Below, in pieces: positions 26,787 to 46,037 of a stretch of 64,000 nucleotides of DNA (positions are counted from its first letter, which is position 1; each line of letters starts with the position of its first letter). The notes below the pieces were generated by a model. The model saw only the letters and a program-made list of their open reading frames with translations, had not been told where the DNA came from and made no database searches. Made by a program: the position numbers and the translations under genes. This DNA is from Streptomonospora alba (lineage in GTDB: Bacteria; Actinomycetota; Actinomycetes; Streptosporangiales; Streptosporangiaceae), in NCBI RefSeq assembly GCF_000826685.1, contig NZ_JROO01000014.1, forward strand, positions 62,001 through 126,000, given 5' to 3'.

Positions 26787-26799
26787 CGGTGGCCCAGGA

Positions 26800-27983: not shown

Positions 27984-28243
27984 CGTCGAGCGCCTCTCCT
28001 CACCACATCCGACCCCGGTGCGAACAGGACGCGCTTTCGCCGACGCCCGGCCGCGCCGAGCGCGCCCGTGCTCGATCGGGCGGAGTCCCGCGGGGGAGGC
28101 GGGCGGCAAGCGGCGCGGTCGCAGCGCCGTCCCGGCAGCGCAGCGCGTTCCAGCTGCGCTGCGCCGCGATGCGCGCGGCCCGGTGCCGACGCTACCCCCG
28201 GCCTGCGGCACCGGTGATCGGGGGTCGCCTCAGCCGCCCGCGG

Positions 28244-30008: not shown

Positions 30009-30106
30009 AGGCTCAGTCTGCACGGAGCAAGGGGAGAAGTCGACGCCGCCGGCGGGTTCGTGCGGACGCGCTTAAGGTCGGATATGGCTGCACTCTTGGA
30101 TTTTCC

Positions 30107-30315: not shown

Positions 30316-32079
30316 GTGGCTGGAGAGCTGACTTTCTCGGCACTTCTACAAGACCGCCTGGCGGTCTTCGGCGATACGGGGAGATTCGTCTTCGCGGGCC
30401 GGGACCGGGACGGGGGCGACGACACCGTCGTCGGCTACGCGGCGCTGGACCGCAAAGCGCGCGCGATCGCGCACCTGCTGCTGGAACGCGGCCTCACCGG
30501 AAGATCGGTACTCCTCAGCTATCCCGGCGCCCAGGAGTTCCTGCCCGCCTTCATCGGCTGCCTCTTTGCGGGCGCCGTCGCGGTCCCCACGCCCCTTCCG
30601 GACCGCTCGCCGGACAGCCTGGAGCGCATCACCCGGATCGCCGACGACGCGCCGGCTCTGGGCGCCGTGCTCACCGGCGGCGCCGATGCCGACTTCTTCC
30701 GCTCCCGGCTGGAGGGCGGCCGCCTGCCCGCAGGCGTGGAGTGCCTGGCCACCGACACCGGGCTCCAAACCGCACCGGCGGCCGCACCTTTGCCCGAAGT
30801 CCGGCCCGAGGACACGGCCCTGCTGCAGTACACCTCGGGATCGACAAGCGAGCCCAAGGGGGTGCGCATCACCCAGGCCAACCTCCTGCACAACCACCGC
30901 GACATCGTCGAGCGCACCGGCGTCAGCCCGGACTCCGTAGGGGTGGGGTGGCTGCCCTACTACCACGACATGGGCCTGGTGGGGCTGCTGCTGACGCCCT
31001 TCCACTACGGCACGCCCTGCGTGGTGCTGGACCCCATGGCCTTCCTCAAGCGCCCGCGCCGGTGGCTGGAGCTGATCACCCGCCACCGCGCAACCCACAC
31101 TGTGGCCCCCAACTTCGGCTATGAGCTGTGCCTGCGGCGCGTGGGCGAGAACGACCTCGACGGCCTTGACCTCAGCAGCTGGCGCGTGGCGCTCAACGGC
31201 GCCGAGTTCGTCAGCGCCGAGGTCGTCGAAGGCTTCACCGAGCGATTCGGCCGTGCGGGGTTCCGCCCCGAAACCTTCACCCCCTGCTACGGCATGGCCG
31301 AGACCACCCTGCTGGTCACCTGCTCGCCGCCGGAGGATCCGCCCACGGTCCTGGACGTCGATCCCGCGGCCCTGGAACGCCACGAGTTCCGCCCGCCGCA
31401 GGAGCCGCGGCAGGCCCGCAGGCTCGTGGGCTGCGGCACGGCGGTCTCCCTGGACGTGCGTGTCGTCGGCGGCGGTTCCGCCGACCCGCGACCGGAGGGC
31501 GCCGTCGGCGAAGTATGGGTGCGCGGCGCGAGCGTCGCGGCAGGCTACAGCGGCCGACGCAGCGCCACGGCCGAGACGTTCGAGGCCTACACCACCGGTG
31601 GGGAGGGTCCGTTCCTGCGCACCGGCGATCTCGGTTTCCTGCATGCCGGGGAACTCTTCATCACCGGGCGGGCCAAGGAGGTCGTCATCCAGAACGGCCG
31701 CAACCTCTACCCGCAGGACCTGGAGGCCGACGTCCGCCGGGCGCTGCCCGAGCGTGCCTGCGGCACGTGCGCGGTCTTCGGCACCGGCCCGCACGGCGAC
31801 GACGTCGTCGTGGTCCAGGAAGTGCGCGCGGCGGCCCTGGGCGAGATGTCGCTGGAGGAGGCCTCGCGCGACATCCGCTCGGCGCTGGCCCGGTTTCACC
31901 GCCTCACGCCCGCTCACGTGGTGCTGGTGCCCTTCTCCCAGGTGCCGCGGACGACCAGCGGCAAGGTGCGGCGCGGCGACACCCGCTCGCTGCACGGCAG
32001 CGGCGGCTTGAGCGTGCTGCACGCCTGGCCGCCGGCGGCCGCCGAACCCCTCGCCCGGACCGCGCCGGCGGAGGCCTGA
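30316..32079 (+). CDS. Fatty acyl-AMP ligase (FAAL)
   Basis: This 587-residue ANL-superfamily ligase would activate a free fatty acid as acyl-AMP and load it on an ACP. Motifs: LLQYTSGSTSEPKGV (AMP-binding P-loop, about residue 170), WLPYYHDMGLVG typical of FAALs, CYGMAETTLLVT, LRTGDLGFLHAGELFITGRAKEV, and the C-terminal Lys in TTSGKVRRG. It groups with FAALs rather than acyl-CoA ligases by the LPYYHDMGL block. The GTG start at 30316 follows AAAGGGA. It is the first gene of a tightly packed operon with two dehydrogenase-like genes and an ACP, so it likely provides the starter unit. Confidence 0.93.
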   Translation: MAGELTFSALLQDRLAVFGDTGRFVFAGRDRDGGDDTVVGYAALDRKARAIAHLLLERGLTGRSVLLSYPGAQEFLPAFIGCLFAGAVAVPTPLPDRSPDSLERITRIADDAPALGAVLTGGADADFFRSRLEGGRLPAGVECLATDTGLQTAPAAAPLPEVRPEDTALLQYTSGSTSEPKGVRITQANLLHNHRDIVERTGVSPDSVGVGWLPYYHDMGLVGLLLTPFHYGTPCVVLDPMAFLKRPRRWLELITRHRATHTVAPNFGYELCLRRVGENDLDGLDLSSWRVALNGAEFVSAEVVEGFTERFGRAGFRPETFTPCYGMAETTLLVTCSPPEDPPTVLDVDPAALERHEFRPPQEPRQARRLVGCGTAVSLDVRVVGGGSADPRPEGAVGEVWVRGASVAAGYSGRRSATAETFEAYTTGGEGPFLRTGDLGFLHAGELFITGRAKEVVIQNGRNLYPQDLEADVRRALPERACGTCAVFGTGPHGDDVVVVQEVRAAALGEMSLEEASRDIRSALARFHRLTPAHVVLVPFSQVPRTTSGKVRRGDTRSLHGSGGLSVLHAWPPAAAEPLARTAPAEA

Positions 32080-32080
32080 G

Positions 32081-33829
32081 ATGCGCTACCCGCCGCTGGC
32101 CCTGGCCGAGGAGCTGGAGGCCCGCATGGGGCCCGCCCAGGCTCCCGGCTCGCCGCTCTCCTACAGGGCCGCCTGCGACCACGACGACCGCGGTGCCTAC
32201 CCGTGGCAGGCCTCGGAGCGGCTTGAGGAATGGGGGCTGGCCGACTACGCGGTGCCCGCCGCTCACGGCGGCCGCCTTGAGGGCATCGACCGGGCGACCC
32301 ACATGATGCGGGCCGTGGCCAGGCGCGATCTGACCCTGGCGATCGGCCACGGACGCACCTTCCTCGGCGCGGTGTCGGTGTGGCTGGACGGCCGGCCCGA
32401 GCAGGCGCGCGACCTGGCGAAGCGGCTGGCGGCCGGCGAGCGGATCTGCTGGGGACTGACCGAGCGGGCCCACGGCAGCGACCTGCTCAGCGGCGAGCTG
32501 TCCGCCACCGCCGAAGGCTCCGGCTACGTCCTCGACGGTGAGAAATGGCTGATCAACGGCGCCACCGACAGCGGTCTGGCATGCGTGTTGGCGCGCACCG
32601 CGCCTGAGGCGGGCCCGCGCGGGTTCGGCGCGTTCCTCGTGGACAAGGCCGAGTTGGGCGCCGGGGAGTACCGGTGCCTGCCCAAGGTGCCCACCTACGG
32701 GATCCGCGGCGCCGACATCAGCGGAATCGCCTTCCACCGGGCCCGCCTCCCGCGGACCGCGGTCATCGGGTCGCCCGACCGGGGTGTCGAAACCGTGCTC
32801 AAGGGCCTGCAGCTGACCCGCACGCTGTGCACGGCGCTGTCCCTGGGCGCGGGCGACAGCGCCCTGCGGTTGGCCGCGCACGCGATCCGCGGGAGCGGCC
32901 GCGCGCCGGGCCCGCCCCACGAGGCGGGGTTGCGCCTGGCCCTGGCCCGCGCCTACGCCGACCACCTCCTCGGCGAAGCGGTGTCCATCGCCGCGGCACG
33001 CGCCGTCACCGTGCTGCCCGGCGAGTCCAGCATCACCTCCGCGGTGGCCAAGTTCCTCGTCCCGCACACCGCCGATACCGCTGTCGCCCGGCTGGCCCCG
33101 GTCGTGGACTGGTGCGCGCCGCCCGAGGACACCGCCCGCGCCTTCGCCAAGACCCGGCGCGACAACCGCATCGTCGGCCTGTTCGACGGCAACAGCGTGA
33201 TCAACCAGCACGCCGTGATCAACCAGTTCCCCACACTGGCACGCGCCGAGACCAAGCAGCGGGTGAGCCCCGACGCCGGGGACGTCTTCGCCCTGAGCAC
33301 ACCGGCCCCGCCCATCGCGCCCGAGCGGATGAGCCTGGCGGCGCTGCACGGCAGCAGCGTGGTGCAGGCCCTGCCGACCCTGGTGGAGCGGGTCGGCGCC
33401 GTCACCGCCGAGGGAGCCCGGCCGGGCGCCGGCGCGGTGGCCGAGGCCGCGCGGCGCCTGGGGCGGGCGCACGAGCGGGTGCGCGTCGAGCTGGCCGCCT
33501 ACCGCCCGGTGGCCCTGCACGCCCCGCCCGAGGCCTTCGACCTGGCCCGCCGCTACGCCCTGTGCTTCGCCGGAGCCGCGTGCCTGTGGCTGTGGCTGGA
33601 CAACTCCGACGGCACCGGCACGGCCGGCGCCGACAGCGTCGACCGCGCCGAGGCGCTGTGGGCCGACGCGCTGTGGGCGCGCGCCGCGCTGGCGCGGGTC
33701 CTGGAGCGCCTGGGCGACCCGGTGCCGGAGGACCCCGCGGCCGGAGACGCCCTCGCGGGCGCGATGTGGGAGCAGTTCGCCGGCGGACGGCTCTTCTCCC
33801 TGCTGGAGTGCCGAGTGGAGGACGAGTGA
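32081..33829 (+). CDS. Acyl-CoA dehydrogenase-like flavoenzyme (starter desaturation)
   Basis: This 582-residue protein has the acyl-CoA dehydrogenase fold: an N-terminal helical domain, the beta domain with GERICWGLTERAHGSDLLSG and EKWLINGATDSG, then the C-terminal helical domain. The usual active-site Glu context (Y/F-E-G-T/N) reads LFDGNSVIN, so the base position appears to be Asp (about residue 369). It starts two bases after the FAAL stop with GGAGG before ATG 32081. FAAL plus paired dehydrogenases occur in lipopeptide clusters such as enduracidin and ramoplanin, where they introduce double bonds into the ACP-bound acyl chain. A similar role is inferred here. Confidence 0.87.
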   Translation: MRYPPLALAEELEARMGPAQAPGSPLSYRAACDHDDRGAYPWQASERLEEWGLADYAVPAAHGGRLEGIDRATHMMRAVARRDLTLAIGHGRTFLGAVSVWLDGRPEQARDLAKRLAAGERICWGLTERAHGSDLLSGELSATAEGSGYVLDGEKWLINGATDSGLACVLARTAPEAGPRGFGAFLVDKAELGAGEYRCLPKVPTYGIRGADISGIAFHRARLPRTAVIGSPDRGVETVLKGLQLTRTLCTALSLGAGDSALRLAAHAIRGSGRAPGPPHEAGLRLALARAYADHLLGEAVSIAAARAVTVLPGESSITSAVAKFLVPHTADTAVARLAPVVDWCAPPEDTARAFAKTRRDNRIVGLFDGNSVINQHAVINQFPTLARAETKQRVSPDAGDVFALSTPAPPIAPERMSLAALHGSSVVQALPTLVERVGAVTAEGARPGAGAVAEAARRLGRAHERVRVELAAYRPVALHAPPEAFDLARRYALCFAGAACLWLWLDNSDGTGTAGADSVDRAEALWADALWARAALARVLERLGDPVPEDPAAGDALAGAMWEQFAGGRLFSLLECRVEDE

Positions 33830-34962
33830 ACGCACCGACGACCGGCGCGGCCGCCGCGGCGCCCCGCGCAGAGGCGACGCGCGTGGAGCGCATGGAGCGC
33901 CTGCTGGGCGCCCCGCACGACCCCGCCAACCCGTTGGGTTTCCCGGCGATCGCCGCCGCCGGGCCCGGCTCGCCGGCCCAGGGCTGGGAGACCGTCCTCG
34001 ACCCCGCCGAGCGCGTCGCGCTGTTCGTGCCCCCTGACCTGGGAGGCGGGTTCTGCGGAGTCGCGGAGCTGATAGCGCGGCTGCGGCCCGTCTACCGCCG
34101 CGACCCCGCCACCGGCCGGGCCTTCGCCGGCCCCGCCCTCGCCCGAGCGCCCCTGTTGTGGGACGAGGCGGCACCCCGCGAGAGCCGGCTGCAGGCGGCC
34201 CGGGAACTGCGCTCCGAGCGGCCGGCACCCCAAGAACCGCCTCGGACGGGACCGGGGCATCCCGCGGGTCTGGTGCGCGCCGCTATGGCGATGGCGGCCA
34301 TGGACACAGCCCTGCGCCTGACCCTCGACTTCGCGCGTGACCGGCGCCTCTACCATGGCACGGTCACCGACCTGCCGCACGCGCGCGCGGCCCTGGCCGA
34401 CGCCTTCGCCCGCCTGCTGCGCGCCGACGCCCTGGTCGCCGCGGCCGCCCGCGCCCGCCCCGAGGGGAACGCAGCCCCGACCGCCTGCGCCGATGCGGCC
34501 GCCCTGACCGACGCCGCGCAGACGGCGGTCTCCACCGTGCTGCGCCCGGCCGTGGAGGACCTCGGCGTCGTCTTGGGCGCGCGCTCCTACCTGCACGAAG
34601 GACGCCACGCCGCCTTCGCCCGCATCTACGCCGAGGTGGACGCCCTGGACCCCGGACGCGACCCCTCCGTCGGCCGCCTGCTGCTCCGGCGTCTGCAGAC
34701 CACCGACGCACAGGCGCCGGTCGGCGGTGCACTCTCCGCCCTCGCCGACGCCCCGCTGTGGGTCGGCGATCCACAGGCGGACCGCGCCGTGCGCGCCTGT
34801 GCCGGCCTGATGGCGCGAACCGCCGCCGCGGCCCGCCCCGTCACCGAGGCGGCGCCGGCGGGGGCCGCCGCTGAGGAGCGCGAAGCGTTCTTCACCGAAC
34901 TCGCCGACCGATTCGCCGACTCCCGGAGCTTCACCACCGAGCGCAGCCCGCTGCTGTGGTGA
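33826..34962 (+). CDS. Truncated acyl-CoA dehydrogenase-like protein
   Basis: This 378-residue protein has a short N-terminal piece (VPPDLGGGFCGVAELIARL) joined almost directly to an acyl-CoA dehydrogenase-type C-terminal helical domain (ARDRRLYHGTVTDLPHARAALADAFARLL in parts; LGARSYLHEGRHAAFARIY). The middle beta-barrel that holds much of the flavin site is not apparent. GTG 33826 overlaps the previous gene's stop as GTGA, implying coupled synthesis. It may form a mixed complex with the full-length dehydrogenase, like the two-gene heteromeric dehydrogenases of steroid degradation; this is inference. Independent catalysis looks doubtful. Confidence 0.75.
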   Translation: MNAPTTGAAAAAPRAEATRVERMERLLGAPHDPANPLGFPAIAAAGPGSPAQGWETVLDPAERVALFVPPDLGGGFCGVAELIARLRPVYRRDPATGRAFAGPALARAPLLWDEAAPRESRLQAARELRSERPAPQEPPRTGPGHPAGLVRAAMAMAAMDTALRLTLDFARDRRLYHGTVTDLPHARAALADAFARLLRADALVAAAARARPEGNAAPTACADAAALTDAAQTAVSTVLRPAVEDLGVVLGARSYLHEGRHAAFARIYAEVDALDPGRDPSVGRLLLRRLQTTDAQAPVGGALSALADAPLWVGDPQADRAVRACAGLMARTAAAARPVTEAAPAGAAAEEREAFFTELADRFADSRSFTTERSPLLW

Positions 34963-34999
34963 CCCGCCGCGATCCGAAGCCGAGGAAAGGGACTGGACT

Positions 35000-35284
35000 A
35001 TGACCGCTGGATCGGGCCTGCCCGAACAGTCCGAGATCGAGCTGTGGCTTCTGGGCCGCCTCGCGTTCTACCTGCAATGCTCCGAAGACGACATCGACCC
35101 CGGTGCGCCGCTGGCCGAAATGGGGATGGACTCCGTCTACGCGGTCACGCTCGCCGGCGACATCGAGGACGCCTACTCCCTCGAAGTCGACCCGACCCTG
35201 GCCTGGGACTACCCCACCGCGCGCGCCATCGCCGGGTTCCTGCACGGGAACCTGACCGCAGCCGCGGTCGAGGACGTCCGATGA
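35000..35284 (+). CDS. Acyl carrier protein (starter-unit ACP)
   Basis: This 94-residue ACP has the phosphopantetheine attachment Ser in EMGMDSVYAVTLAGDIEDAY (Ser 45). The upstream acidic helix and the DYPTARAIAGFL segment match type I-like ACPs. It starts after AGGAAAGGG and overlaps the PKS start by ATGA. The position between the FAAL/dehydrogenase genes and the PKS suggests it carries the activated fatty acyl chain during desaturation and delivers it to the ketosynthase. Confidence 0.92.
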   Translation: MTAGSGLPEQSEIELWLLGRLAFYLQCSEDDIDPGAPLAEMGMDSVYAVTLAGDIEDAYSLEVDPTLAWDYPTARAIAGFLHGNLTAAAVEDVR

Positions 35285-38200
35285 GCGGCCGGGACCCGAT
35301 CGCCGTCGTCGGAATGGACCTGCGGTTTCCCGGTGCCGAAGGCAAGGACGCCTTCTTCGACCTCCTGCTGTCCTCGGGAGACGGCATCGGCCCCGTCCCG
35401 GCCGACCGGTGGGACCCCGCCGAGTTCACCCGCGAACACGACGGCGCGGCCCGGATGAACACCGCCGACGGCGGATTCCTCGCCGACGTCTCCTCCTTCG
35501 ACAACGCCTTCTTCGGCGTCTCGCCGGCCGAGGCCGCCCAACTCGACCCCCAGCAGCGCCAGCTGCTGCAGAGTACGTGGCGCGCCCTGGAGGACAGCGG
35601 ACGCGACCCGGCCGCGATGGCGGGCTCGCGCACCGGCGTCTACGTCGGTGTGATGGGCAACGAATGGGCCCAGCTGCACCTGACCGACTACGCCAACATC
35701 ACCGCTCAGGCGGCGTCGGGCAACGGCTACTACATGACCGCCAACCGGCTCTCCTACCAGTTCGACTTCACCGGCCCCAGCCAGGCGATCGACACCGCAT
35801 GCTCCTCCTCGCTCGTGGCGCTGCACACCGCCTGCGGCGCGCTGCGGACAGGGGAGTGCGACACCGCGATCGCGGCGGGCGTGAACATCATCCTGGTCCC
35901 CACCTCGCACCTGTTCTACGCCCAGGCCGGCCTTTCCGCGCCGGACGGGCGCTGCAAGCCCTTCAGCGCAGACGCCGACGGCATCGGCCGCTCCGAGGGC
36001 GTGGCGGTGCTCGTACTGCGCCGCCTCGACGACGCCCTGGCCGAGGGCGCTCCCGTCTACGCCGTGGTGCGGGGCAGCGCAGTCAACCACGACGGCCGCA
36101 GCAACGGGCTGACGGCGCCCAACCGGTGGGCCCAGGAACGGGTACTGGCCGAGGCCTACCACAGAGCCGGCGTCGCCCCCGCCGAGGTGGACCTCGTCGA
36201 GGGGCACGGCACCGGCACCCTGCTCGGCGACATGATCGAGGTGCGCGCGCTGGGCACCCACTACGGCACCCGCGGACTCCCCAGCGCGTTCGGCTCGGTC
36301 AAGGGCAACGTCGGCCACTGCGAGGGCGCGGCCGGACTCGCCGGAGTGGCCAAGGCCGTGCTGGCGCTGAACCGCCGCGTCGCTCCGCCCAGCCGCTATT
36401 CCGAGTCCGAAAACCCCGAACTTGACCTGCACGCCGCTGGACTGCGCCTTCTGCGGGCACCCAGGCGGCTCGCCGACGGGGCGATCGCCGCGGTCAGCAG
36501 CTTCGGCCTGGGGGGCACCAACGCCCACGCGGTGTTGCAGGCGGCACCGGCCCCGCGCCGCGGCGGCCGCCGCGGCGCGGGGCCCGCCGACGGCTCCGTC
36601 GGCGTCTTCACCGCCTCGTCCGACTCCGCCGAAGGGCTGCGCCGCAATCTGGAGGGCCTGGCCGACTGGGTGTCGCGCAGCCGCGAGCATCCCGCCCGGC
36701 TCGCCTGGACCAGCAACCGCGTCAAGGCCGGGCTGCGCCACCGCTTCGCCGCGGTCGCTGACGACCGCGACATCCTGGCCGCCTCCCTGCGCGCCGCCGC
36801 CCGCGGCGAGCGGCCCACCGGGCGGCGCTCGGCCCGGGGCCCCCGCGTGGGGCTGCTGTTCCCCGGGCAGGGGGCGCAGTATCCCGCGATGACCCACCGG
36901 CTCTACCGGGCCTGTCCGCCCTACCGGGAGGCGCTCGACGAGGTCGACACGTGCCTGGAGCCCCACCTCGGCCGGTCCGTGCGGGCCGCGCTGGCAGAAG
37001 CCGACGAGGACGTGCACCACACCTCGTTGACCCAGCCGGCGCTGTTCGCCGTCGAGTACGCCATGGCCACCGTCCTCACCCGCACCGGAGTGCGCCCGGA
37101 CTGGCTGATCGGCCACAGCGTCGGCGAGTACGCGGCCGCCTGCGTGGCCGAAGCGCTGAGCCTCGAAGACGCCTGCCGGCTGGTGGCCGCACGCGCCCGC
37201 CTCATCGGCTCCCTGCCCGAAGGCGGCGCCATGCTCAACGTCTCGGCGGGCCCCGACCTGCTGCGCGGCATCGCCGAGTCCGACCCGCGCGTCGACGTCG
37301 CCGCGATCAACGCGCCCCGCTCCGGAGTCCTCTCCGGCGACGCCGACGCCTTGCAGCGCCACGCCGCCGACCTGGCGGCCGCCGGCGTGGCCCACCGGTG
37401 GCTGAAGGTCTCGCACGCCTTCCACTCGGCGCGCATGGACCCGGTGCTGGAGGAGTTCGGCCGTATCGCCGACGAGGTCGCCCCCGCCCGGCCCGCGGTG
37501 CCGATCTACTCCACGCTGCTGGGGCGCCGGGTCGACGAGGACAAGCTCGACGGCGCCTACTGGCGCGACCAGATCCGCGGCACCGTCCGCTTCGCCGAAG
37601 CGGCCGAGGCCGCCCTGGCCGCCGCCCCCACGCACCTGGTCGAGGCCGGTCCCCGACCGGTGCTGACCGCCTTGTTCCAGCGCATCCGCCCCGGACTGGA
37701 GGCCAAGGCGCTCAGCCCGTGCCCCGGCCCCCGGGCCGACGGGAACGAACTCGCGGGGGCGCTGGCCGCCCTCTACAACGACGGCGCCGCTGTCGACCCC
37801 GAGCCGCTGTACGCGCCGGGCGGGCGCCGGACGGTGCGGCCGCACCCCTACGTCTTCGACACGTCGCGGCACTTCCCCGCCGCGGCCCGATACCGGCCGA
37901 CCCTCGCCCCTCGGTCGCCGGGCGGCGGTTCCGGCGCGGCTGCGGCGGAACCCGCGACCGGTGCGGCCGAAGTGCCGGTGCCGAAGGCGTCGGGAACCGG
38001 CGCCGGGGCGGTGCGGGATGCGGCTCCCCACACCGACGAGATCGTGGAGCTGGTGGCCGAAGCCGGCGGATACGCCGCCGCCGAGGTCGACCGCGGAGCC
38101 CGGCTCTTCGAGGACCTGGGGTTCGACTCCATCGTGCTGGCGCGCGTCCTCAGCGAGGTCGAGCAGCGCTGGCCGCACCTGGCCCCGCTGCCGGTGGAGG

Positions 38201-38289
38201 ACGTCCTGGCCAGCGCGACGAGCCTGAACACGCTCACCGACTACATGGCCCAGCGTCTCGGCGAGCCGCGGCGAAACGAGGAGGGCTGA
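35281..38289 (+). CDS. Single-module type I PKS, KS-AT-ACP
   Basis: This 1002-residue synthase has domains in this order. KS covers about 5-430, with Cys174 in DTACSSSLVALHT, His309 in EGHGTGT (usually EAHGTGT) and His346 in GNVGHCEGAAG. AT covers about 520-830, with Ser613 in GHSVGEYAAA and SHAFHS, a malonyl-CoA signature. ACP covers about 910-995, with Ser950 in LGFDSIVLA. There is no KR, DH, ER or TE. It would extend an ACP-bound fatty acyl chain once with malonate and leave a beta-ketoacyl-ACP, the substrate needed for tetronate formation. ATG 35281 is taken since it aligns with the KS N-terminus (DPIAVVGMDLRFPG); the frame extends further left across the ACP gene but is not coding there. 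Confidence 0.95.
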   Translation: MSGRDPIAVVGMDLRFPGAEGKDAFFDLLLSSGDGIGPVPADRWDPAEFTREHDGAARMNTADGGFLADVSSFDNAFFGVSPAEAAQLDPQQRQLLQSTWRALEDSGRDPAAMAGSRTGVYVGVMGNEWAQLHLTDYANITAQAASGNGYYMTANRLSYQFDFTGPSQAIDTACSSSLVALHTACGALRTGECDTAIAAGVNIILVPTSHLFYAQAGLSAPDGRCKPFSADADGIGRSEGVAVLVLRRLDDALAEGAPVYAVVRGSAVNHDGRSNGLTAPNRWAQERVLAEAYHRAGVAPAEVDLVEGHGTGTLLGDMIEVRALGTHYGTRGLPSAFGSVKGNVGHCEGAAGLAGVAKAVLALNRRVAPPSRYSESENPELDLHAAGLRLLRAPRRLADGAIAAVSSFGLGGTNAHAVLQAAPAPRRGGRRGAGPADGSVGVFTASSDSAEGLRRNLEGLADWVSRSREHPARLAWTSNRVKAGLRHRFAAVADDRDILAASLRAAARGERPTGRRSARGPRVGLLFPGQGAQYPAMTHRLYRACPPYREALDEVDTCLEPHLGRSVRAALAEADEDVHHTSLTQPALFAVEYAMATVLTRTGVRPDWLIGHSVGEYAAACVAEALSLEDACRLVAARARLIGSLPEGGAMLNVSAGPDLLRGIAESDPRVDVAAINAPRSGVLSGDADALQRHAADLAAAGVAHRWLKVSHAFHSARMDPVLEEFGRIADEVAPARPAVPIYSTLLGRRVDEDKLDGAYWRDQIRGTVRFAEAAEAALAAAPTHLVEAGPRPVLTALFQRIRPGLEAKALSPCPGPRADGNELAGALAALYNDGAAVDPEPLYAPGGRRTVRPHPYVFDTSRHFPAAARYRPTLAPRSPGGGSGAAAAEPATGAAEVPVPKASGTGAGAVRDAAPHTDEIVELVAEAGGYAAAEVDRGARLFEDLGFDSIVLARVLSEVEQRWPHLAPLPVEDVLASATSLNTLTDYMAQRLGEPRRNEEG

Positions 38290-38290
38290 G

Positions 38291-38620
38291 GTGGCCGCGA
38301 CCGACTCCCCCTTCGCCGGGGCCCGCCGCGAGCCGCGGATCTGGGTGGGCAGCGTCTCCCGCCGCGAACTGCACACGATGATCGCCCGCGGCCGCACCGG
38401 CACCGTCGCGGCCCACACCCGCCTCGCCGACCTGGGGCTCGACAGCGCCGGAGTGCGGGAGCTGCTGGCAGACGTCGAGCGGCGCTGGCCGCACCTCGCT
38501 CCGCTGCCCCACCAGGCCGTCGCCGACCGCGCCGCCACGGTTTCCGAGCTCGTCGACTGCCTCGTCCGACTGGACTTCAGCACCCTCGACCTTTGGAGGA
38601 CCGATACATGGCTGACGTGA
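38291..38620 (+). CDS. Second acyl carrier protein, PKS-ACP-like
   Basis: This 109-residue protein has an ACP core: LADLGLDSAGVRELLADVE with Ser 52 in the attachment motif. The segment RWPHLAPLP after it is identical to the same stretch in the PKS C-terminal ACP, so it looks like a duplicate of that domain freed from the PKS. It begins with GTG two bases after the PKS stop and overlaps the KAS III gene by 13 bases. It could hold the extended beta-ketoacyl chain for the KAS III enzyme or raise flux as a tandem ACP; its first 35 residues are unusual. Confidence 0.82.
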   Translation: MAATDSPFAGARREPRIWVGSVSRRELHTMIARGRTGTVAAHTRLADLGLDSAGVRELLADVERRWPHLAPLPHQAVADRAATVSELVDCLVRLDFSTLDLWRTDTWLT

Positions 38621-39648
38621 CCCCGCACGCCGCCGCGATCGCGGGCACCGGGGCCTCGCTGCCCGGGGAGCCGATCGACAACACCGCCCTGGGGGAGTTC
38701 CTCGGCGTCGCGCCGGAGTGGATCTCCCGGTTCGTCGGCACCGAGCAGCGCCACCTGGCCATGGACCTCAAGACCGGCGAGGTGTACCGGAGCCTGGCCG
38801 ACATGGCCACCGACGCGGCGCTGGAGGCCCTGGACACGGCCGAGACGGCCCCCGGCGCCCTCGACTTCGTCGTAATGGGCACCGCCACCCCCGACGAGCT
38901 GATGCCGGCGACGGTCAACCACGTCGCCGACCGCCTCGGCGTCGAGCACATTCCCACCTACCAGGTCCAGTCGGGCTGCGCGGGTGCCGTGCAGGCGCTG
39001 AGCCTGGCCGAGCGCCTGCTGACGCTGCCCGGGCACACCACCGGCCTGGTGATCGGCGGCGAGACCTGCGTCAAGCACTGTGTCACCGGCCGTTCCCCCG
39101 GTGAGATCGGCTCCTCCGAGCTCGTCAACTACATGCTCTTCGGAGACGGTGCCGGCGCTGCTGTGCTCACCGGCCGCCCCGAGCCGGGTGACCTGCGCAT
39201 ACGCGCGATCCTCAACCAGTTCACCGGCGCGGGCAAACCGGCCGGTCAGACCGTGCGGTGGTTCGGCCAAGCCGACCGCGACTCCGGCGAACCCCCGTTC
39301 TCCGAGGATTACAAGGCCATCGAGGAGCGGGTACCCGAGATGGCCGCGGAGATCCTGTGGCAGTTGCTGGAGACCACCGGCTGGCGCCCCGAGGACGTCG
39401 GCCACGTCCTGCCCCCGCAGCTGTCGGGCCGGATGACGCCCCGGATCACCGAGCGCCTGGCCCTGCCCGCGGCCCGAGAGGTGAACTGCGTGCACCAGAC
39501 GGGCAACAACGCCAACGCCCTGCCGTTCCTCCAGCTCGACCGGCTGATGCGCAAGGAGGACCCGGAGAGCATCGGCACGGTCGTGGGGATCGCGGTGGAG
39601 TCCAGCAAGTGGCTCAAGGCCGGGTTCGCACTGGAAAGGCAGGAGTGA
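38608..39648 (+). CDS. KAS III-like ketosynthase, tetronate-forming type
   Basis: This 346-residue thiolase-fold enzyme of the FabH-like group has nucleophile Cys124 in VQSGCAGAVQAL and the C-terminal TGNNANAL segment corresponding to the GN-T/N Asn. The usual HQAN histidine motif reads LPPQLSG, so that His is replaced. Homologues in tetronate clusters (AbyA1, RkD type) join the beta-ketoacyl chain with glyceryl-ACP to close the tetronate ring. It heads the same five-gene order as abyA1-A5. ATG 38608 is supported by GGAGG at -9; an earlier TTG in the same frame overlaps that site. Confidence 0.88.
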   Translation: MADVTPHAAAIAGTGASLPGEPIDNTALGEFLGVAPEWISRFVGTEQRHLAMDLKTGEVYRSLADMATDAALEALDTAETAPGALDFVVMGTATPDELMPATVNHVADRLGVEHIPTYQVQSGCAGAVQALSLAERLLTLPGHTTGLVIGGETCVKHCVTGRSPGEIGSSELVNYMLFGDGAGAAVLTGRPEPGDLRIRAILNQFTGAGKPAGQTVRWFGQADRDSGEPPFSEDYKAIEERVPEMAAEILWQLLETTGWRPEDVGHVLPPQLSGRMTPRITERLALPAAREVNCVHQTGNNANALPFLQLDRLMRKEDPESIGTVVGIAVESSKWLKAGFALERQE

Positions 39649-39653
39649 GCACC

Positions 39654-41594
39654 GTGACCGCCACCGGTACCGAACGGGCCGCCGAACCCGCCGCCCCCGT
39701 CGAAAGGCTGCGTGCGCTGCACCGGGGCGGAGAGCTGGCGCGCTCCTTTCCCGCAGCGACCGATCTGCTGCGGCGGATCCCCATAGCCGAGCTGGACACC
39801 GTCGCCCGCCTCTTCGGCGGGCTCGACGCCGACGAGGTCGCCGAGCACCACCCCGCGACCCCGGCGGTGCGCGTCGACGTGTGCGCCAACGGGACCGCGG
39901 CGGAGCTGATCCCGCTGCTGGGCGCCCACCTCGCCCGCTCGGGGATGTCGATGCGGGCGCATTCGGCCCCCTACACCCGCGACCACACCCGCGTCCCCTG
40001 GTCGGAGCCGCCTGCCGAGGACGAGGGCCCTCGGCTGCGACTGCTCCTGCTCGACGCCCACGCCGTGGTCGAGGAGCTCGCCGTGCCCTGGGACGTAGCC
40101 GCGGTCGAGACCGCCCTCGGCGACCTGCTCGGGCGTATCGAGGCGCTCGCGGCCGCACAACGCGCGGCCGCGGGCTCCACGCTGGTGCTCAACACGCTCC
40201 CGCTGCCCGCGCGGTTGGTCGACCAGCTGGTGGACATCGGCTCCCGTACGCGGTTGGGCATCGCCTGGCGGGAGTTCAACACGGGGCTGCTGCGCATCGC
40301 CGAGGCCGAGCCGGGAACCGTCGCCGTCGACACCGCGCCCATCCTCGCCGAGACCGGACCGCTGTACGACGACCGGCTCGCCTGCTACGCCCGCGTGCAC
40401 CTGGGCACGGAGTTCCTGTCCGGCTACGCGCGCGAGGTCGCCGCCACCGTGCGAGCGCTCAGCGGACGCGCCAGGAAGGCCCTCGCCCTGGACCTGGACG
40501 GCACCCTGTGGGGAGGCGTGCTCGGCGAGGACGGCCCCGAGGGCATCGAGGTCGCGGGCGGCTCGCGGGGCGTGGCCTACCAGGAGTTCCAGCGGGTCCT
40601 GGCCCAGCTGGGCGCCCAAGGCGTGCTGCTGACCGTGTGCAGCAGGAACGAGACGGAACCGGTCGAGCGGGCGCTGTCGGACCACCCCGAGATGGCCCTT
40701 CGGCGCGAGGACTTCGTCGCGCTGGCGGCCAACCGACGTCCCAAACCCGACAACGTCGCCGAGATCGCCCGCCTACTCGGTCTGGGCCGCGACGCCTTCG
40801 TCTTCGTCGACGACACCGCCACCGAGGCCGGTGCCATGCGCGACCTGCTGCCCGAGGTCGGCGTGGTGCACGTGGCCGGCGATCCCGCGCTGCACCCGAG
40901 GCGGCTGCTGGAAGAGGCGTGGTTCCGCACCCTGGAGACCACCGAAGAAGACCGGACGCGCCGGGAACGCTACCGCGGCGAGGCCCGCCGCGAGGAACTG
41001 CGCCAAGCCTCCGGGTCGACCGTCGACTACCTGCGCCACCTGGGGGTCGAGGTCGAGCTGCTGCGCCCCGCACCCGAGGCGGTTGCGCGGCTGGCCCAAC
41101 TCACCCAGCGCACCAACCAGTTCAACCTCACCACCGAGCGGCTCGGCGCCGACGAGGTCCGCGACCGGCTCGCCGCCCCCGACCACTGGGTGGTGGCCGT
41201 GCGCTCGCGCGACCGCTTCGGCGAGCACGGCGTCGTCGGCGCCGTCTTCGCCCGCCGCGAGGAGGACCGGCTCACCGTCGACAACATGCTGCTCAGCTGC
41301 CGGGTGTTCGACCGCGGCATCGAGACCGCCTGCCTGAGGGCGCTGCTGGTGGAGGCGCGCGAGCAGGGATGCACCGAGGTCGTGGGCCGCTACCGGCCCA
41401 GCCCCCGCAACGGGCGCTTCGCCGCGCTCTACACCGACCACGGCTTCACCGAGCGGAACCCGGGCGGAACCGCGGACGGCGGCGCCGGCACCCGGGTGTT
41501 CGCCCACCGCCTGACCGCAGCCCAGGGGTGCGGACCCGACGCACTACCCGACCATCCCGACCACATCCGCCTGTTGAGCCCCTCCCGCGGCTGA
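39654..41594 (+). CDS. FkbH-like glyceryl-ACP synthase
   Basis: This 646-residue protein has three parts. The N-terminal region (1-270) is typical of FkbH proteins. A HAD-type phosphatase domain follows, with ALDLDGTLWGGVLGEDG (Asp280 and Asp282), the RRPKPDN lysine motif and FVFVDDTATE. A C-terminal GNAT-like region (about 480-620) has TQRTNQFNLTT, a family hallmark. FkbH enzymes take 1,3-bisphosphoglycerate, dephosphorylate it and load glyceryl onto an ACP. In tetronate clusters the partner is the small ACP gene downstream (41743). GTG 39654 follows AGGAG; GTG 39645, overlapping the previous stop, is an alternative. Confidence 0.93.
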   Translation: MTATGTERAAEPAAPVERLRALHRGGELARSFPAATDLLRRIPIAELDTVARLFGGLDADEVAEHHPATPAVRVDVCANGTAAELIPLLGAHLARSGMSMRAHSAPYTRDHTRVPWSEPPAEDEGPRLRLLLLDAHAVVEELAVPWDVAAVETALGDLLGRIEALAAAQRAAAGSTLVLNTLPLPARLVDQLVDIGSRTRLGIAWREFNTGLLRIAEAEPGTVAVDTAPILAETGPLYDDRLACYARVHLGTEFLSGYAREVAATVRALSGRARKALALDLDGTLWGGVLGEDGPEGIEVAGGSRGVAYQEFQRVLAQLGAQGVLLTVCSRNETEPVERALSDHPEMALRREDFVALAANRRPKPDNVAEIARLLGLGRDAFVFVDDTATEAGAMRDLLPEVGVVHVAGDPALHPRRLLEEAWFRTLETTEEDRTRRERYRGEARREELRQASGSTVDYLRHLGVEVELLRPAPEAVARLAQLTQRTNQFNLTTERLGADEVRDRLAAPDHWVVAVRSRDRFGEHGVVGAVFARREEDRLTVDNMLLSCRVFDRGIETACLRALLVEAREQGCTEVVGRYRPSPRNGRFAALYTDHGFTERNPGGTADGGAGTRVFAHRLTAAQGCGPDALPDHPDHIRLLSPSRG

Positions 41595-41603
41595 AACCGG
41601 GGC

Positions 41604-41641
41604 GGGCCCACCCGGCCCCGGCGCTCGGACCGGGTGGGCCC
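41604..41641 (+). terminator. Strong hairpin inside the biosynthetic operon
   Basis: GGGCCCACCCGG (41604-41615) pairs perfectly with CCGGGTGGGCCC (41630-41641) around a 14-base loop, directly after the FkbH stop. Two 24-base imperfect copies (20 matches) flank it at 41579 and 41639. It may attenuate transcription into the last four genes; the 148-base gap is the widest in the operon. Confidence 0.55.
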
Positions 41642-41742
41642 CTCTCGCGGCCGCAGCCGGGGAGGCGACCGGGCCCGCGGCACAGGCCGAGGCCCCGCGC
41701 CGCGACAGAGCCGATCCCGCCCACGTCGAAAGGCACAGCACC

Positions 41743-41982
41743 GTGAACAGCAGAAACGAACTTCTCCGGATCATCGACACCGAACTAGCGCTTCCGCTGG
41801 CGCCGGAGCACCTCGACGTCGAGTTCGACCGCCTCGAAGGCTGGGACTCGGTGCACATGGTGCGGCTCATCTCGGCCGTGGAGCGCGCGACCGGCAGGCA
41901 GGTCGACGTCTCCGCGGCCCTGGAGAGCCGCAACCTCGCCGAGTTCCTCACCCTGGCCGCCGCCCTCGGCGAAACCGCCTGA
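41743..41982 (+). CDS. Glyceryl-carrying ACP
   Basis: This 79-residue discrete ACP has Ser 36 in LEGWDSVHMVRLISAVE. The W-D-S form of the motif and the small size match the ACPs that carry glyceryl units in tetronate clusters (AbyA3, RkF). It follows the FkbH gene and ends two bases before the acyltransferase start. The GTG start has AAAGG upstream. The assignment as the partner of the FkbH enzyme rests on gene order and family. Confidence 0.9.
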   Translation: MNSRNELLRIIDTELALPLAPEHLDVEFDRLEGWDSVHMVRLISAVERATGRQVDVSAALESRNLAEFLTLAAALGETA

Positions 41983-41983
41983 G

Positions 41984-42760
41984 GTGGCCGCCGCCCTCGG
42001 CGCCCGCGTCACCGCACTCGAACCGCAGCGGCGCCACACCCTGCACTTCCTCGCGTTCGCCCGGCAGGCCAGCCCCGTCCACCTCGACACCGAGGTCGAC
42101 ATGCGCGCCGTGCTCGCCCATCGGGGCGGGAACGGCGCCGCCCTGCGCTACTCGGTGGTCAGCTACGTCATGCTCGCCGGAGCGCGTGCCCTCGCCCGCC
42201 ACCCCGACGCCAACGCAGCCGTCACCGGGCGCCTGCGCCCGCGCGTCGCCCGCTACCCGGCCGTGGACGTCAAGCTGGCGCTGGACAAGCGGGTGGACGG
42301 CAGGCGGGTGGTGCTCACCGTGCCGATCCCCGGCGTCGATCGTCGGAGCCTGCCCGAACTGCAGGAGGCCGTGGACCGGCTGCGCGACACCGACGCCGCC
42401 GTCCTGCCCGAGGCGGACGGGGCGCGAACGCTGATGCGGCTGCCCTTCGCCCTCGGCGGCGCCGGATTCCGCCTGGCCCTGTCCCGGCTGCGCAACCGGC
42501 CCCGCTACATGGGCACCCTGGCCGTCTCCAGCCTCGGCCACCGTCCGGTCGACGGCTTCCATTCCTACGGCGGCACCGCGGTGACGCTCGGGGTGGGGCG
42601 CATCCGCGACCTGCCGCGCGCCGAGGCCGGCGCCGTGGCGATCGTGCCGACCATGCGCCTCAGCCTCACCTTCGACCACCGCGTGGTCGACGGGGCGACG
42701 GCGGCCGACGTCCTCGCCGACGTACGCGAGAACTTGGAGGACTGCCGTGGCATGGGATGA
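41984..42760 (+). CDS. E2-like acetyltransferase of the tetronate cassette
   Basis: This 258-residue protein matches the catalytic domain of 2-oxoacid dehydrogenase E2 components, without lipoyl or subunit-binding domains. The active-site motif is LTFDHRVVDGA with His232, and the preceding region (GTLAVSSLG, GGTAVTLGVG) is typical. AbyA4/Agg4-type homologues acetylate the primary hydroxyl of the tetronate using acetyl-CoA. The gene starts with GTG two bases after the ACP stop and overlaps the hydrolase gene by 14 bases. Function is inferred from the AbyA4-like position and size. Confidence 0.88.
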   Translation: MAAALGARVTALEPQRRHTLHFLAFARQASPVHLDTEVDMRAVLAHRGGNGAALRYSVVSYVMLAGARALARHPDANAAVTGRLRPRVARYPAVDVKLALDKRVDGRRVVLTVPIPGVDRRSLPELQEAVDRLRDTDAAVLPEADGARTLMRLPFALGGAGFRLALSRLRNRPRYMGTLAVSSLGHRPVDGFHSYGGTAVTLGVGRIRDLPRAEAGAVAIVPTMRLSLTFDHRVVDGATAADVLADVRENLEDCRGMG

Positions 42761-43883
42761 CGCTCACCCCCCGGCCGACCCGGCTGCGCAGGACGACCCG
42801 CAGCGGCGCCTGGCCGAGCTGCGGGACTTCGCCCTGCTGCACGCCCGCGCCCAGGGCATCTCTCGGCGGGAGTGCCGTGATGTAGGGGCCGAAGCGGCCA
42901 CCGAATCGGACTGGGTAGCCGGCTGGAGCGACCGCGCCCGCGCGCTGCGGCGGCGGGGCGACCCCCTGGGGGCCTGCCGCCGGTACGGCATGGCCCGGTT
43001 CCCCTACGTCGACGGCCCCGAGCGCGCCCGGGCGCTCGGCGAGTGCATCGCCTCCTTCGACGACTGGCGCTGCCGGCGCGGCATCGAGCGGTTGGAGGTC
43101 GAGGGAGCCGGCCGTCGCTTCGCCTGCTGGACCGCCGGACTGGGCGGGCGGCGCCCCCTCGTCGTCGTCCTCGGCGGAATCGTCAGCATCAAGGAGCAGT
43201 GGGCCCAGTTCATCCCCGCGGCGCGTCGGTTGGGTTACGCCGTGGCCGTGACCGAGATGCCCGGGGTGGGGGAGAACCCGCTGGACTACGGCCCCGGCAG
43301 CGAGGACGTGCTCACGGCCGTGCTCGACGCCTGCGCCCAGCGGATGGAGGTGCGCACCGCACACGTCGTCGGCATGAGCTTCGGCGGCCACCTGGCGCTG
43401 CGCTGCGCCTTGGGCGACGGACGCGTGCGAGGGCTGGTCACCGTCGGAGCGCCCGTCCGGGCGCCGTTCGAAGCCCTCGTCGATCGGCGAGGGCTTCCCG
43501 GGCTGACCGCGCGCACGCTCGCCCACGTCTGCGGCGCCGGCGACGACCGCCTCCCCGCCATCCTGGCGGGCATGGCGCTCGACGCCGACCGCCTCGCCCG
43601 CCTCGACCTGCCGCTCCACTACCTGGAGAGTCTGCGCGACGAGGTCATCCCGCGTTCCGACGTCGATCTCGTGCACCGGCACGTGCGCGGCCGACGCATC
43701 GTCAGCTGCGACGACGTGCACGGCTCGCCGGCCAACGTCAATCGCACGCGTGTGTGGATGTTCGGATCGCTGCTGGCGCTGCGCGGCGCCGGCACCCGGG
43801 CCCGCGCGCTGCACGCACTGTCGGGACTGCCCGTCCGCCCGGACGACGGCTCCGGACGGACCCGAACCGGGAGCACACGATGA
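42747..43883 (+). CDS. Alpha/beta-hydrolase, eliminating enzyme of the tetronate cassette
   Basis: This 378-residue protein has a helical N-terminal third and an alpha/beta-hydrolase core with LVVVLGGIVSIKEQW, the nucleophile elbow GMSFGGHLAL (Ser211) and a late Asp-His region (CDDVHGSP). Homologues AbyA5/Agg5 eliminate acetate from the acetylated tetronate to give an exocyclic double bond. GTG 42747 follows GGAGG. It overlaps the thioesterase gene by four bases (ATGA). The resemblance to AbyA5 is by length, fold and gene order; the elimination role is inferred. Confidence 0.87.
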   Translation: MAWDDAHPPADPAAQDDPQRRLAELRDFALLHARAQGISRRECRDVGAEAATESDWVAGWSDRARALRRRGDPLGACRRYGMARFPYVDGPERARALGECIASFDDWRCRRGIERLEVEGAGRRFACWTAGLGGRRPLVVVLGGIVSIKEQWAQFIPAARRLGYAVAVTEMPGVGENPLDYGPGSEDVLTAVLDACAQRMEVRTAHVVGMSFGGHLALRCALGDGRVRGLVTVGAPVRAPFEALVDRRGLPGLTARTLAHVCGAGDDRLPAILAGMALDADRLARLDLPLHYLESLRDEVIPRSDVDLVHRHVRGRRIVSCDDVHGSPANVNRTRVWMFGSLLALRGAGTRARALHALSGLPVRPDDGSGRTRTGSTR

Positions 43884-44713
43884 CCGAGAGGCGATCCGCG
43901 GCCATGCCGGAACCGGCCGCCGCGGTGGCAGAGCCCGCCGGAGTATCGCCGCGCCCGGCACACGGCGGCGCCTACCTCGGCCCCGAGGCCTACGAGGGCG
44001 GACTGCGGGTGGTCTGCTTCCACCACGCCGGCGGCGGCGCCTCGGGGTTTCGCGCCTGGCGCGGCGCTTTCGGCCCCGACGTCGCGGTCTGCCCCGTCCA
44101 GCTGCCGGGCCGGGAGAGCCGGCGCCGCGAGCGGCCCTTCACCGATATCGGCGCCCTCGTGGCCGAACTCGACCGTGAACTGGACGAGGTGCTGGAAGAA
44201 CCGCACCTGCTCTTCGGCCACAGCATGGGGGCGCTGGTGGCCTACCGGCTCGCGCTGCGCCGTATGCGCCGCGGCGCCCGACCGGCCCTGGGGCTGGCGG
44301 CGGCCTGCTACCCCGCGCCGAGGCGGGCGGCCTCGGGCGGCATCGGTACCTGGGCCCTGGCCGACGACGAGACGCTGGCCGGCCTCCTCGCCGACGCGGG
44401 CGGTGTCCCCGCCGAGCTGCTCCGGCACCGTTCCCTGCTGCGCGCGCTACTCGGCGCGGTGCGCGCCGACCTTGGGGTGTGCACCACCCACCGGGCGCAG
44501 GACGCGGGGACGCTGGACATCCCCGTGCACGTGTTCGGAGGGCGCGGCGACAGGATCGTGGCTCCGGAAGCGCTGGCCGGATGGGCGCAGTGCACGGCGG
44601 ACCGCTTCACCCTGCGGATGCTGGAGGGTGGCCACTTCTTCCCGGTCCGCACCCCGGGAGAGCTGCTCGCAGAGCTGGGGCCGGTGGTCGCCGCGGCACG
44701 CGCCCGGTCCTGA
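43880..44713 (+). CDS. Type II thioesterase
   Basis: This 277-residue alpha/beta hydrolase of the RifR/GrsT type has LRVVCFHHAGGGASGFRAW, VQLPGRESRRRE, the nucleophile GHSMGALVAYRLAL (Ser115) and a C-terminal GGHFFP with the catalytic His. It should clear misprimed ACPs in the cluster. A Pro/Ala-rich N-terminal extension of about 40 residues is longer than usual. It is the last gene of the rightward operon and is followed by a strong terminator facing the P450 gene. Confidence 0.92.
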   Translation: MTERRSAAMPEPAAAVAEPAGVSPRPAHGGAYLGPEAYEGGLRVVCFHHAGGGASGFRAWRGAFGPDVAVCPVQLPGRESRRRERPFTDIGALVAELDRELDEVLEEPHLLFGHSMGALVAYRLALRRMRRGARPALGLAAACYPAPRRAASGGIGTWALADDETLAGLLADAGGVPAELLRHRSLLRALLGAVRADLGVCTTHRAQDAGTLDIPVHVFGGRGDRIVAPEALAGWAQCTADRFTLRMLEGGHFFPVRTPGELLAELGPVVAAARARS

Positions 44714-44840: not shown

Positions 44841-46037
44841 TCACCACGAGACCGGGAGTTCGCGCAGACTGTGCACCATCATCCCGCGGGTCATCTCCAG
44901 CTCGTCCGCCTCGGCGTCGAGTGCGAGCCCGGGGAAGCGGCGAAAGAGCGTGCTCAGCGAGATCTGCAGCTCGGCCCGCGCGAGGGCGGCCCCGATGCAG
45001 TAGTGCACGCCGTGGCCGAAGGCGATGTGCTGCTGGTCGGGCCGGTCGATGTCGAAGGAGTGGGGGTCGTCGAAACGCCGGTGGTCGTGGTTGGCCCCGG
45101 GGACCGAGGCGACGACGGCCGCCCCCGCGGGGATCGTGGTACCGGCGACCTCGACATCCTCCAGGGTGACCCGCAGCGGCCCGCCGTCGCCGATCGGGTT
45201 GACCCGCAGGATCTCCTCGACGATGTCGTCGATGCGCTCGGGCGACTCCTTCAGAGTCCGGACGGCGCCGGGGTGCAGCAGGAGGCTGAGGGCCCCGCTG
45301 CCGATGACCGTGGCCGTGGTCTCGTGCCCGGCGACCAGCAGCGTCATCCCCATCATCATGAGTTCGTGCTCGGAGAGCCGCTCCTCTTCCTCGGCCCGCA
45401 CCAATGCGCTGATCAGGTCGTCCCCGGTACCGTCGGCGCGTTTGGCCGCGATGAGCTCCTGGAAATAGCCGGCCAGGCTGGCCATGTCGTGCAGCGCCTC
45501 GTCCTCGGTGTGCGAGGTGAGCGAGACGATGCCCTCGGACCACTTCTGGAACTTGTCGTGGTCGGCGAAGGGTACGCCCAGCAGTTCGCAGATGACCCGC
45601 ACCGGCAGCGGGAACGCCAGGGATCCGATCAACTCGGCGGGCGGGCCCTGCTTCTCCATCGCGTCGAGGAGTTCGTCGGTGATGCGCTGGATGTGGGTGC
45701 GCAGGCCGTTGATGCGCCGGGCGGTGAACTCCTTGGCCACCAGGCGGCGCAGGCGCGTGTGCTCGGGGGGATCCATGGTGAACAGCCCGCCGCTGACCGG
45801 GCGCGCCGACGTGAGCCGGGGCGCGTCCGGCTCGGCCGTGGCGGCGCGGCTGAACCTCGGGTCGGCCAGCACGGAGTAGACGTCGTCGAACCGGCTGACC
45901 ACCCAGCCCTCGTCGCCGCTGGGGAAGGCCGCGCGGGCGACCGGCTCCTTCTCGCGCAGGTGCCGGTAGATCGGAGGGATCTCGGTGACGGAGTACCGCG
46001 TGAAGGGGTAGGGGTGCGGTTTCTGCTCGTGTTCCAT
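44841..46037 (-). CDS. Cytochrome P450, cluster tailoring enzyme
   Basis: This 398-residue P450 has the I-helix LLVAGHETTATVIG, the E-x-x-R in VEEILRVNPIG, and the heme loop FGHGVHYCIGAALARAE with its Cys near residue 347. The N-terminus and length suit a CYP105/107-like macrolide or polyketide hydroxylase. It is the last gene of the leftward group SARP, flavin monooxygenase, P450, starting 13 bases after the monooxygenase stop. It probably oxidises the tetronate product; the site is unknown. Confidence 0.93.
   Translation of the reverse strand: MEHEQKPHPYPFTRYSVTEIPPIYRHLREKEPVARAAFPSGDEGWVVSRFDDVYSVLADPRFSRAATAEPDAPRLTSARPVSGGLFTMDPPEHTRLRRLVAKEFTARRINGLRTHIQRITDELLDAMEKQGPPAELIGSLAFPLPVRVICELLGVPFADHDKFQKWSEGIVSLTSHTEDEALHDMASLAGYFQELIAAKRADGTGDDLISALVRAEEEERLSEHELMMMGMTLLVAGHETTATVIGSGALSLLLHPGAVRTLKESPERIDDIVEEILRVNPIGDGGPLRVTLEDVEVAGTTIPAGAAVVASVPGANHDHRRFDDPHSFDIDRPDQQHIAFGHGVHYCIGAALARAELQISLSTLFRRFPGLALDAEADELEMTRGMMVHSLRELPVSW

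Follow-up and report, generated by a model that had tools for sequence, protein, structure and literature searches.

A compact gene cluster in Streptomonospora alba that likely directs the synthesis of a fatty-acid-derived acyl tetronate

The window analysed here is a stretch of 64,000 nucleotides from Streptomonospora alba (NCBI RefSeq assembly GCF_000826685.1, contig NZ_JROO01000014.1, positions 62,001 to 126,000 of the forward strand). It contains a gene cluster which, taken as a whole pathway, is likely to make a fatty-acid-derived 3-acyl tetronate. Genes for the activation of a free fatty acid are followed in this cluster by a single polyketide synthase (PKS) module and by a set of tetronate-forming genes. 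We rate the cluster as a variant of the RK-682/agglomerin type, with RK-682 and agglomerin as the nearest known systems.

Results

Twelve genes on the plus strand, between positions 30316 and 44713, form the core of the cluster. The original prediction had read them in order from a fatty acyl-AMP ligase (FAAL) to a thioesterase, and all twelve were found there in that order. Neighbouring genes overlap by 4 to 14 nucleotides or are separated by at most 37, the sole exception being the 148 nucleotides between FkbH and ACP3. In the list, ACAD stands for acyl-ACP dehydrogenase, ACP for acyl carrier protein, KS for ketosynthase, AT for acyltransferase and KAS III for 3-oxoacyl-ACP synthase III.

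30316-32079, plus strand: FAAL (AMP-binding domain; FAAL models among the best NCBIfam matches; FAAL tree)
32081-33829, plus strand: ACAD1, putative acyl-ACP dehydrogenase whose usual base position is occupied by Asp, in FDGN (Acyl-CoA_dh_N and Acyl-CoA_dh_M)
33826-34962, plus strand: ACAD2, shortened dehydrogenase-like protein of 378 amino acids (Acyl-CoA_dh_1 only)
35000-35284, plus strand: ACP1, predicted loading carrier (PP-binding, 6.9e-13)
35281-38289, plus strand: single KS-AT-ACP module (ketoacyl-synt, Acyl_transf_1 and PP-binding)
38291-38620, plus strand: ACP2-like protein with an LGLDS serine motif (no Pfam match)
38608-39648, plus strand: KAS III, predicted to be tetronate-forming, RkD/AbyA1 type (ACP_syn_III; match to 5by7; tree)
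39645-41594, plus strand: FkbH, predicted glyceryl-ACP synthase, RkE/AbyA2 type (TIGR01686, 282 bits, cut-off 146.65; DLDGT)
41743-41982, plus strand: ACP3, stand-alone predicted glyceryl carrier beside FkbH, AbyA3 type (PP-binding, 3.5e-6)
41984-42760, plus strand: E2-like acyltransferase, Agg4/AbyA4 type (2-oxoacid_dh, 5.9e-22; HRVVDG)
42747-43883, plus strand: alpha/beta hydrolase, Agg5/AbyA5 type (Abhydrolase_1; AbyA5)
43880-44713, plus strand: predicted type II thioesterase, which may have an editing role (Thioesterase, 8.8e-37, scored on the longer frame 43043-44713)

The genes expected for a 3-acyl tetronate are present, namely an FkbH-like synthase, a stand-alone ACP next to it and a KAS III of the tetronate clade. 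A source of the beta-ketoacyl thioester is provided by the KS-AT-ACP module, in which a domain scan found no reductive domains. Its AT carries the malonyl-type motifs GHSVGE and HAFHS, which we take to indicate malonyl specificity. The pair expected for a 5-methylene, agglomerin-type ending is there as well, in the form of an Agg4-like E2 protein and an Agg5/AbyA5-like hydrolase. This hydrolase matches AbyA5 (4ywf) at E 1.9e-71 and retains its Ser, acid and His, whose roles we assume. Scanning with patterns that we presume to be catalytic returned DTACSSS in the KS, QSGC and GN..N in the KAS III, DLDGT in FkbH, HRVVDG in the E2 protein, SFGG and DDVHGS in the hydrolase and GHSMG in the thioesterase. 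According to the available parts of the published work, FkbH enzymes load a glyceryl unit from 1,3-bisphosphoglycerate on an ACP for coupling to a beta-ketoacyl thioester by a FabH-like enzyme, after which Agg4-type enzymes acetylate the hydroxymethyl group and Agg5-type enzymes eliminate acetate (PMC3625739, PMC7489565, PMC4979870, PMC5819245). The order KAS III, FkbH, ACP, E2, hydrolase had been likened to that of AbyA1-A5 and indeed agrees with the abyssomicin order in the accessible text of PMC3625739, the hydrolase being an AbyA5 homologue. We rejected a role of FkbH in methoxymalonyl extender supply, as its neighbours include a KAS III of the tetronate type and a relative of AbyA5 and no methoxymalonyl genes were found among the operon genes scanned.

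The best solved match of the KAS III is 5by7 (E 1e-93, 318 bits), and the next chain follows at 7.9e-28 and 101 bits. We take 5by7 to be AbyA1; its label in the table is just 3-oxoacyl-ACP synthase III. To place the protein we used a tree of 84 rows, made up of the window, its sister genome G026, genome G112, 80 named loci and Escherichia coli FabH, which forms a very long branch on which the root was placed. This tree, like those of FAAL and ACAD1, was built in quick mode with SH-aLRT support only. KAS III phylogeny had been put forward as a check on the tetronate assignment, and the window protein lies within the tetronate clade, in a branch of 54 rows with an SH-aLRT support of 100, apart from 29 other tetronate-type rows that include Streptomyces abyssomicinicus (L140). 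Its nearest rows form a 10-row branch with a support of 85 (not starred), in which an FAD monooxygenase (FMO) gene is found in 8 of the 10, L153 and L169 being the rows that show none. When open frames were scanned with sequence patterns, LPPQL turned up in the KAS III region of 80 of 81 loci (L098-L177 and L033), and the window has it likewise; an HQAN-type pattern had no match in any of the 81. The usual KAS III triad is Cys-His-Asn, and its His seems to be replaced across these loci. KAS III genes 46-54% identical to that of the window are also present on 14 plasmid records (H1-H14), nine of which are from Streptomyces.

The 80 named loci are the best of 203 KAS III relatives, and the counts therefore cover the nearest part of the family; presence of a gene was called at bit-score thresholds set by us (150 bits for the P450). 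A total of 51 loci share the clade of the window. FAAL was found in 44 of these 51 and ACAD in 38, versus none of the 29 loci outside, and FMO in 7 versus none. The clade loci further contained ACP1 (48), KS-AT (48), FkbH (34), ACP3 (40), E2 (39), hydrolase (40), thioesterase (14) and SARP regulator (28) genes. One KS region was found per locus wherever a KS was seen, in L113 as two adjacent pieces. The original prediction considered the joining of a FAAL/dehydrogenase starter to tetronate genes unusual. This did not hold, because FAAL occurs in 44 of the 51 loci; judged from these gene sets, the combination is a recurrent design among actinobacteria and at least one cyanobacterium. Clade members include Streptomyces scabiei 87.22, S. 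ossamyceticus, Kitasatospora indigofera (L112), Actinokineospora iranica and Prauserella endophytica, and also a metagenome-assembled genome (MAG) of a Xenococcaceae cyanobacterium (L137) with a collinear set that includes the FMO. FMO homologues sit inside the related clusters L033, L098 and L137, and in L166 a 55% identical P450 homologue adjoins the FMO.

Several variations were seen within the clade. A Streptomyces variant (L126, L133, L135, L136, L138, L141, L158 and L161) has the order FAAL-ACP-KS/AT-KAS III-FkbH-hydrolase-thioesterase, with a hydrolase that is AbyA5-like (45-49% identical) and no ACAD or E2-like match. In L137, a polyketide-cyclase-like gene and a gene with weak, below-cut-off similarity to AurF are inserted in the set. 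L105 (S. scabiei 87.22) and L166, the two loci scanned for such genes, have a phosphopantetheinyl transferase gene between E2 and hydrolase (12032-12955 and 13848-14516, respectively), and L105 also has an AfsA-domain gene downstream (19078-20157).

As a starter cassette, FAAL, an FDGN-type ACAD and an ACP stand in order in the window; a full-length second ACAD with a GHAG-like sequence is missing. The order FAAL-ACAD-ACAD-ACP, which the window shares, is also found in 15 of 19 loci from other contexts, beside nonribosomal peptide synthetase (NRPS) and other genes. These 19 loci differ from the window in that no match to the tetronate KAS III, FkbH or E2 was found in any of them; by motif patterns rather than a domain scan, 10 have a condensation-type motif and 7 of those 10 also an adenylation motif. 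In a tree of 46 tetronate FAAL rows and 18 others, the contexts separate with two exceptions, L033 and L090. Besides an ACAD1, L090 (G230:C4:89500-97000) has a second ACAD that is likewise shortened (a 385-amino-acid frame).

ACAD1 of the window is intact and keeps FDGN, and its ratio of nonsynonymous to synonymous substitution rates (dN/dS), calculated between the genome of the window (G000) and that of the sister species (G026), is 0.28. Open reading frames for the motif counts were chosen by similarity, not by motif. At the position that we assume to hold the catalytic base of the ACAD family, ACAD1 has Asp in 36 of 36 members of the tetronate group (FDGN in 35, FDGS in 1), and the 19 other-context loci have Asp in 18 and Glu in 1. 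ACAD2 is different. In the window and in G026, its middle FAD domain is short of 101 alignment columns and further C-terminal stretches are missing too; the GHAG residues are absent from the window protein. An assembly fault is unlikely, since two separate assemblies agree. The ACAD2 relatives of the tetronate group all keep the middle domain (39/39; INN in 38, VNN in 1) and all have GHAG, with no acidic residue, while second ACADs from other contexts lack an acidic residue in 15 of 16 cases and have Asp in one (L083). As even the full-length relatives have no acidic residue at the base position, ACAD1 may be the catalyst throughout the family. ACAD2 itself would be either a loosely constrained partner subunit or a fading gene. 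The two dehydrogenase genes of the original prediction thus exist and one is intact, but two working enzymes are not what we see, and double desaturation is doubtful because ACAD2 has no FAD-binding middle domain in either species.

The cluster extends beyond the twelve genes. At the corresponding site, the colinear congener G047 has about 0.5 kb where the window has about 21.2 kb (~28,010-49,172), and G026 has about 20.7 kb. The flanks align with G047 (contig C22) on both sides, 25386-28009 with 94012-96607 at 79% identity and 49173-50990 with 97102-98866 at 82%. The alignments indicate that some 21 kb was gained or lost as a single block. We take ~28,010 and ~49,172 as the cluster limits because the G047 site is empty of the cluster, and for the same reason we rejected a cluster confined to 30316-44713. 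The genes predicted there as an operon are real, but the unit is larger and includes five genes, all on the minus strand, that had been missed:

28244-29329, minus strand: PAPS-type sulfotransferase, which may sulfate the product or an intermediate (Sulfotransfer_3, Pfam 2e-20)
29346-30023, minus strand: DedA/VTT-family membrane protein, possibly for lipid handling or export (Pfam 5.1e-24; DedA model below its cut-off)
44841-46037, minus strand: cytochrome P450, putative tailoring enzyme (p450, 2.9e-35)
46051-47409, minus strand: FMO, putative tailoring enzyme (FAD_binding_3, 9.5e-43; 8uiu, E 3.8e-40)
47440-48183, minus strand: SARP-family regulator (BTAD, 3.3e-42)

G026 matches 20 of the 22 window proteins queried at E 1e-10, the two without a match being ACP2 and the product of one gene outside the block. 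The carrier core of ACP2 is gone in G026, where only the tail residues DFSTLD.WRT.TWLT remain, so the ACP2-like protein is probably dispensable. The sulfotransferase has a 75% identical copy in G026 and no match at E 1e-20 in G040, G047, G054 or G087; the DedA protein was found in G026 only among the five congeners searched. ARAGORN found no tRNA gene in the window. For 14 of 16 block genes dN/dS was 0.15-0.38, the outliers being ACAD2 (0.55) and the 79-amino-acid ACP3 (0.74). These ratios indicate that purifying selection acts on most of the block.

Discussion

Starting from what can be read directly, that is, genes, families, motifs, clade membership and block limits, the pathway would run as follows. 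FAAL would adenylate a free fatty acid and load it on ACP1, and ACAD1 would desaturate the bound chain, to the 2-enoyl thioester as a minimum. Because ACAD2 is degenerate, a further double bond is uncertain. The KS-AT-ACP module would then add one malonate and leave the beta-keto group unreduced. By analogy with published homologues, FkbH would convert 1,3-bisphosphoglycerate to glyceryl-ACP3, and the KAS III would join both partners by a C-C and a C-O bond to release a 3-acyl-5-hydroxymethyl tetronate. In the same way, the E2-like enzyme would acetylate the 5-hydroxymethyl group and the AbyA5-like hydrolase would eliminate acetate to give a 5-methylene tetronate. FMO and P450 may then oxidise the chain or the ring, in an order that we can only suggest, and the sulfotransferase may sulfate the product. 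For the core, we expect a 3-alkenoyl, less surely a 3-dienoyl, 5-methylene tetronate, with chain length and degree of unsaturation as predictions from the genes. The original prediction had proposed the FAAL/dehydrogenase/ACP starter, a single malonate, tetronate closure and the exocyclic methylene, and these steps fit those described for homologues in the available parts of the literature.

RK-682, as far as is known, arises from a set of six genes of the FAAL type. We presume that this set corresponds to FAAL-ACP-KS/AT/ACP-KAS III-FkbH-ACP, although part of the gene names and the mapping of rkA and rkB are our assumption; the same order is seen in ACAD-free clade members such as L133. Like the window, the RK-682 genes (rkA-F of Streptomyces sp. 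88-682), as far as the available description goes, encode a KAS III (RkD) that joins the acyl chain and glyceryl-ACP after loading by an FkbH-type enzyme (RkE). Compared with what we take to be the RK-682 set, the window adds the ACADs, E2, FMO, P450 and sulfotransferase. Agglomerin, to our knowledge, uses fatty acid biosynthesis intermediates and no FAAL, ACAD or PKS module. The accessible text describes its Pantoea cluster, with homologues in Dickeya, as having FkbH, ACP and FabH functions with Agg4 acetylation and Agg5 elimination to the 5-methylene, as in the window, but in only seven genes and 8 kb. That tetronates may draw on fatty acid biosynthesis intermediates is stated in general terms in the available part of PMC4979870. 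Abyssomicin differs by a seven-module PKS and a proposed Diels-Alder step, and FAAL is not mentioned in the portion of text examined. A literature search that covered few subscription journals found no description of a FAAL-plus-dehydrogenase or FAAL-primed tetronate; the single paper that mentions tetronates as well as an AMP ligase does so in sections that have nothing to do with each other.

Several observations weigh against the pathway as we read it. FAAL models are among the best NCBIfam matches of the ligase, yet none reaches its cut-off. In the FAAL tree L033 groups with loci of other contexts, and L090, with no tetronate KAS III nearby and just a 30% identical KAS III within the 26 kb inspected, groups with the tetronate rows; on the ACAD1 tree the tetronate label requires four changes. 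L153 (Solihabitans fulvus) belongs to the FAAL KAS III clade and has full flanks, yet no FAAL or KS within 10 kb. The other six FAAL-less clade loci (L107, L122, L127, L132, L155 and L156) are truncated by contig ends. FkbH was seen in only 34 of the 51 loci, partly because its position ahead of FAAL puts it at the margin of the sequence retrieved, and the P450 is rare in the clade (2/51). As the 80 named loci have no homologues of the sulfotransferase or the DedA protein at E 1e-5, the insertion limits are the sole reason for giving these two a role in the cluster. ACP2 has no Pfam match and ACAD2 no FAD domain, which points to possible decay in part of the line.

Taken further, this last point could mean that the whole cluster no longer makes a product and is retained by chance. 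The shortening of ACAD2 in both genomes and the loss of the ACP2 core from G026 would fit, but the other core genes are intact, dN/dS is low in 14 of 16 genes and the whole block is kept in G026, which makes general decay highly improbable. A more serious, though still doubtful, alternative is that only the ACAD unit has stopped desaturating in this genus, so that a saturated acyl tetronate resembling agglomerin or RK-682 would be formed. ACAD2 has lost its middle domain and GHAG and evolves faster, and the ACAD-free FAAL members of the clade show that the line can exist without ACADs. On the other hand, ACAD1 is intact and under selection, and because the full-length ACAD2 relatives are base-less in 39 of 39 cases, ACAD1 may catalyse throughout.

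It is also conceivable that the product goes beyond a linear enoyl tetronate, with a dienoyl chain and the exocyclic methylene leading to a dimer or a [4+2] cyclisation as in spirotetronates. E2 and hydrolase would make the dienophile, as they do in spirotetronates, and the FMO is remotely PyrE3-like (5xgv, E 4.2e-13). Several other flavin monooxygenases match at least as well as PyrE3 and 8uiu far better, the single PKS module implies a short chain, and the second desaturation is doubtful, so that we consider such a product very unlikely. A spirotetronate cluster as such was rejected, since these have a multi-module type I PKS and the block has one module.

Tentatively, we propose that tetronate clusters with a FAAL start and one PKS module form a widespread class, spanning Streptomyces, Kitasatospora, Streptacidiphilus, Actinokineospora, Prauserella, relatives of Actinomadura and one cyanobacterial MAG, whose products are enoyl or dienoyl 5-methylene tetronates absent from the literature we found. 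As part of the same proposal, the lineage of the window would be a derived branch in which ACAD2 is kept without its catalytic domain as a coupled subunit, and in which sulfotransferase, FMO and P450 may lead to an oxidised, sulfated, doubly electrophilic lipid tetronate. If the pathway is as we read it, a fatty acid starter cassette of the lipopeptide type and a tetronate closing cassette have been joined in one compact and recurrent pathway. With twelve collinear genes and a single PKS module, it is compact enough for transfer into laboratory Streptomyces, where one could test directly which acyl chain is used, what the two dehydrogenases do as a pair and how tailoring proceeds. The shortened ACAD2 would then serve as a natural test of whether the base-less second ACAD paralogue acts as an enzyme or as a partner subunit.

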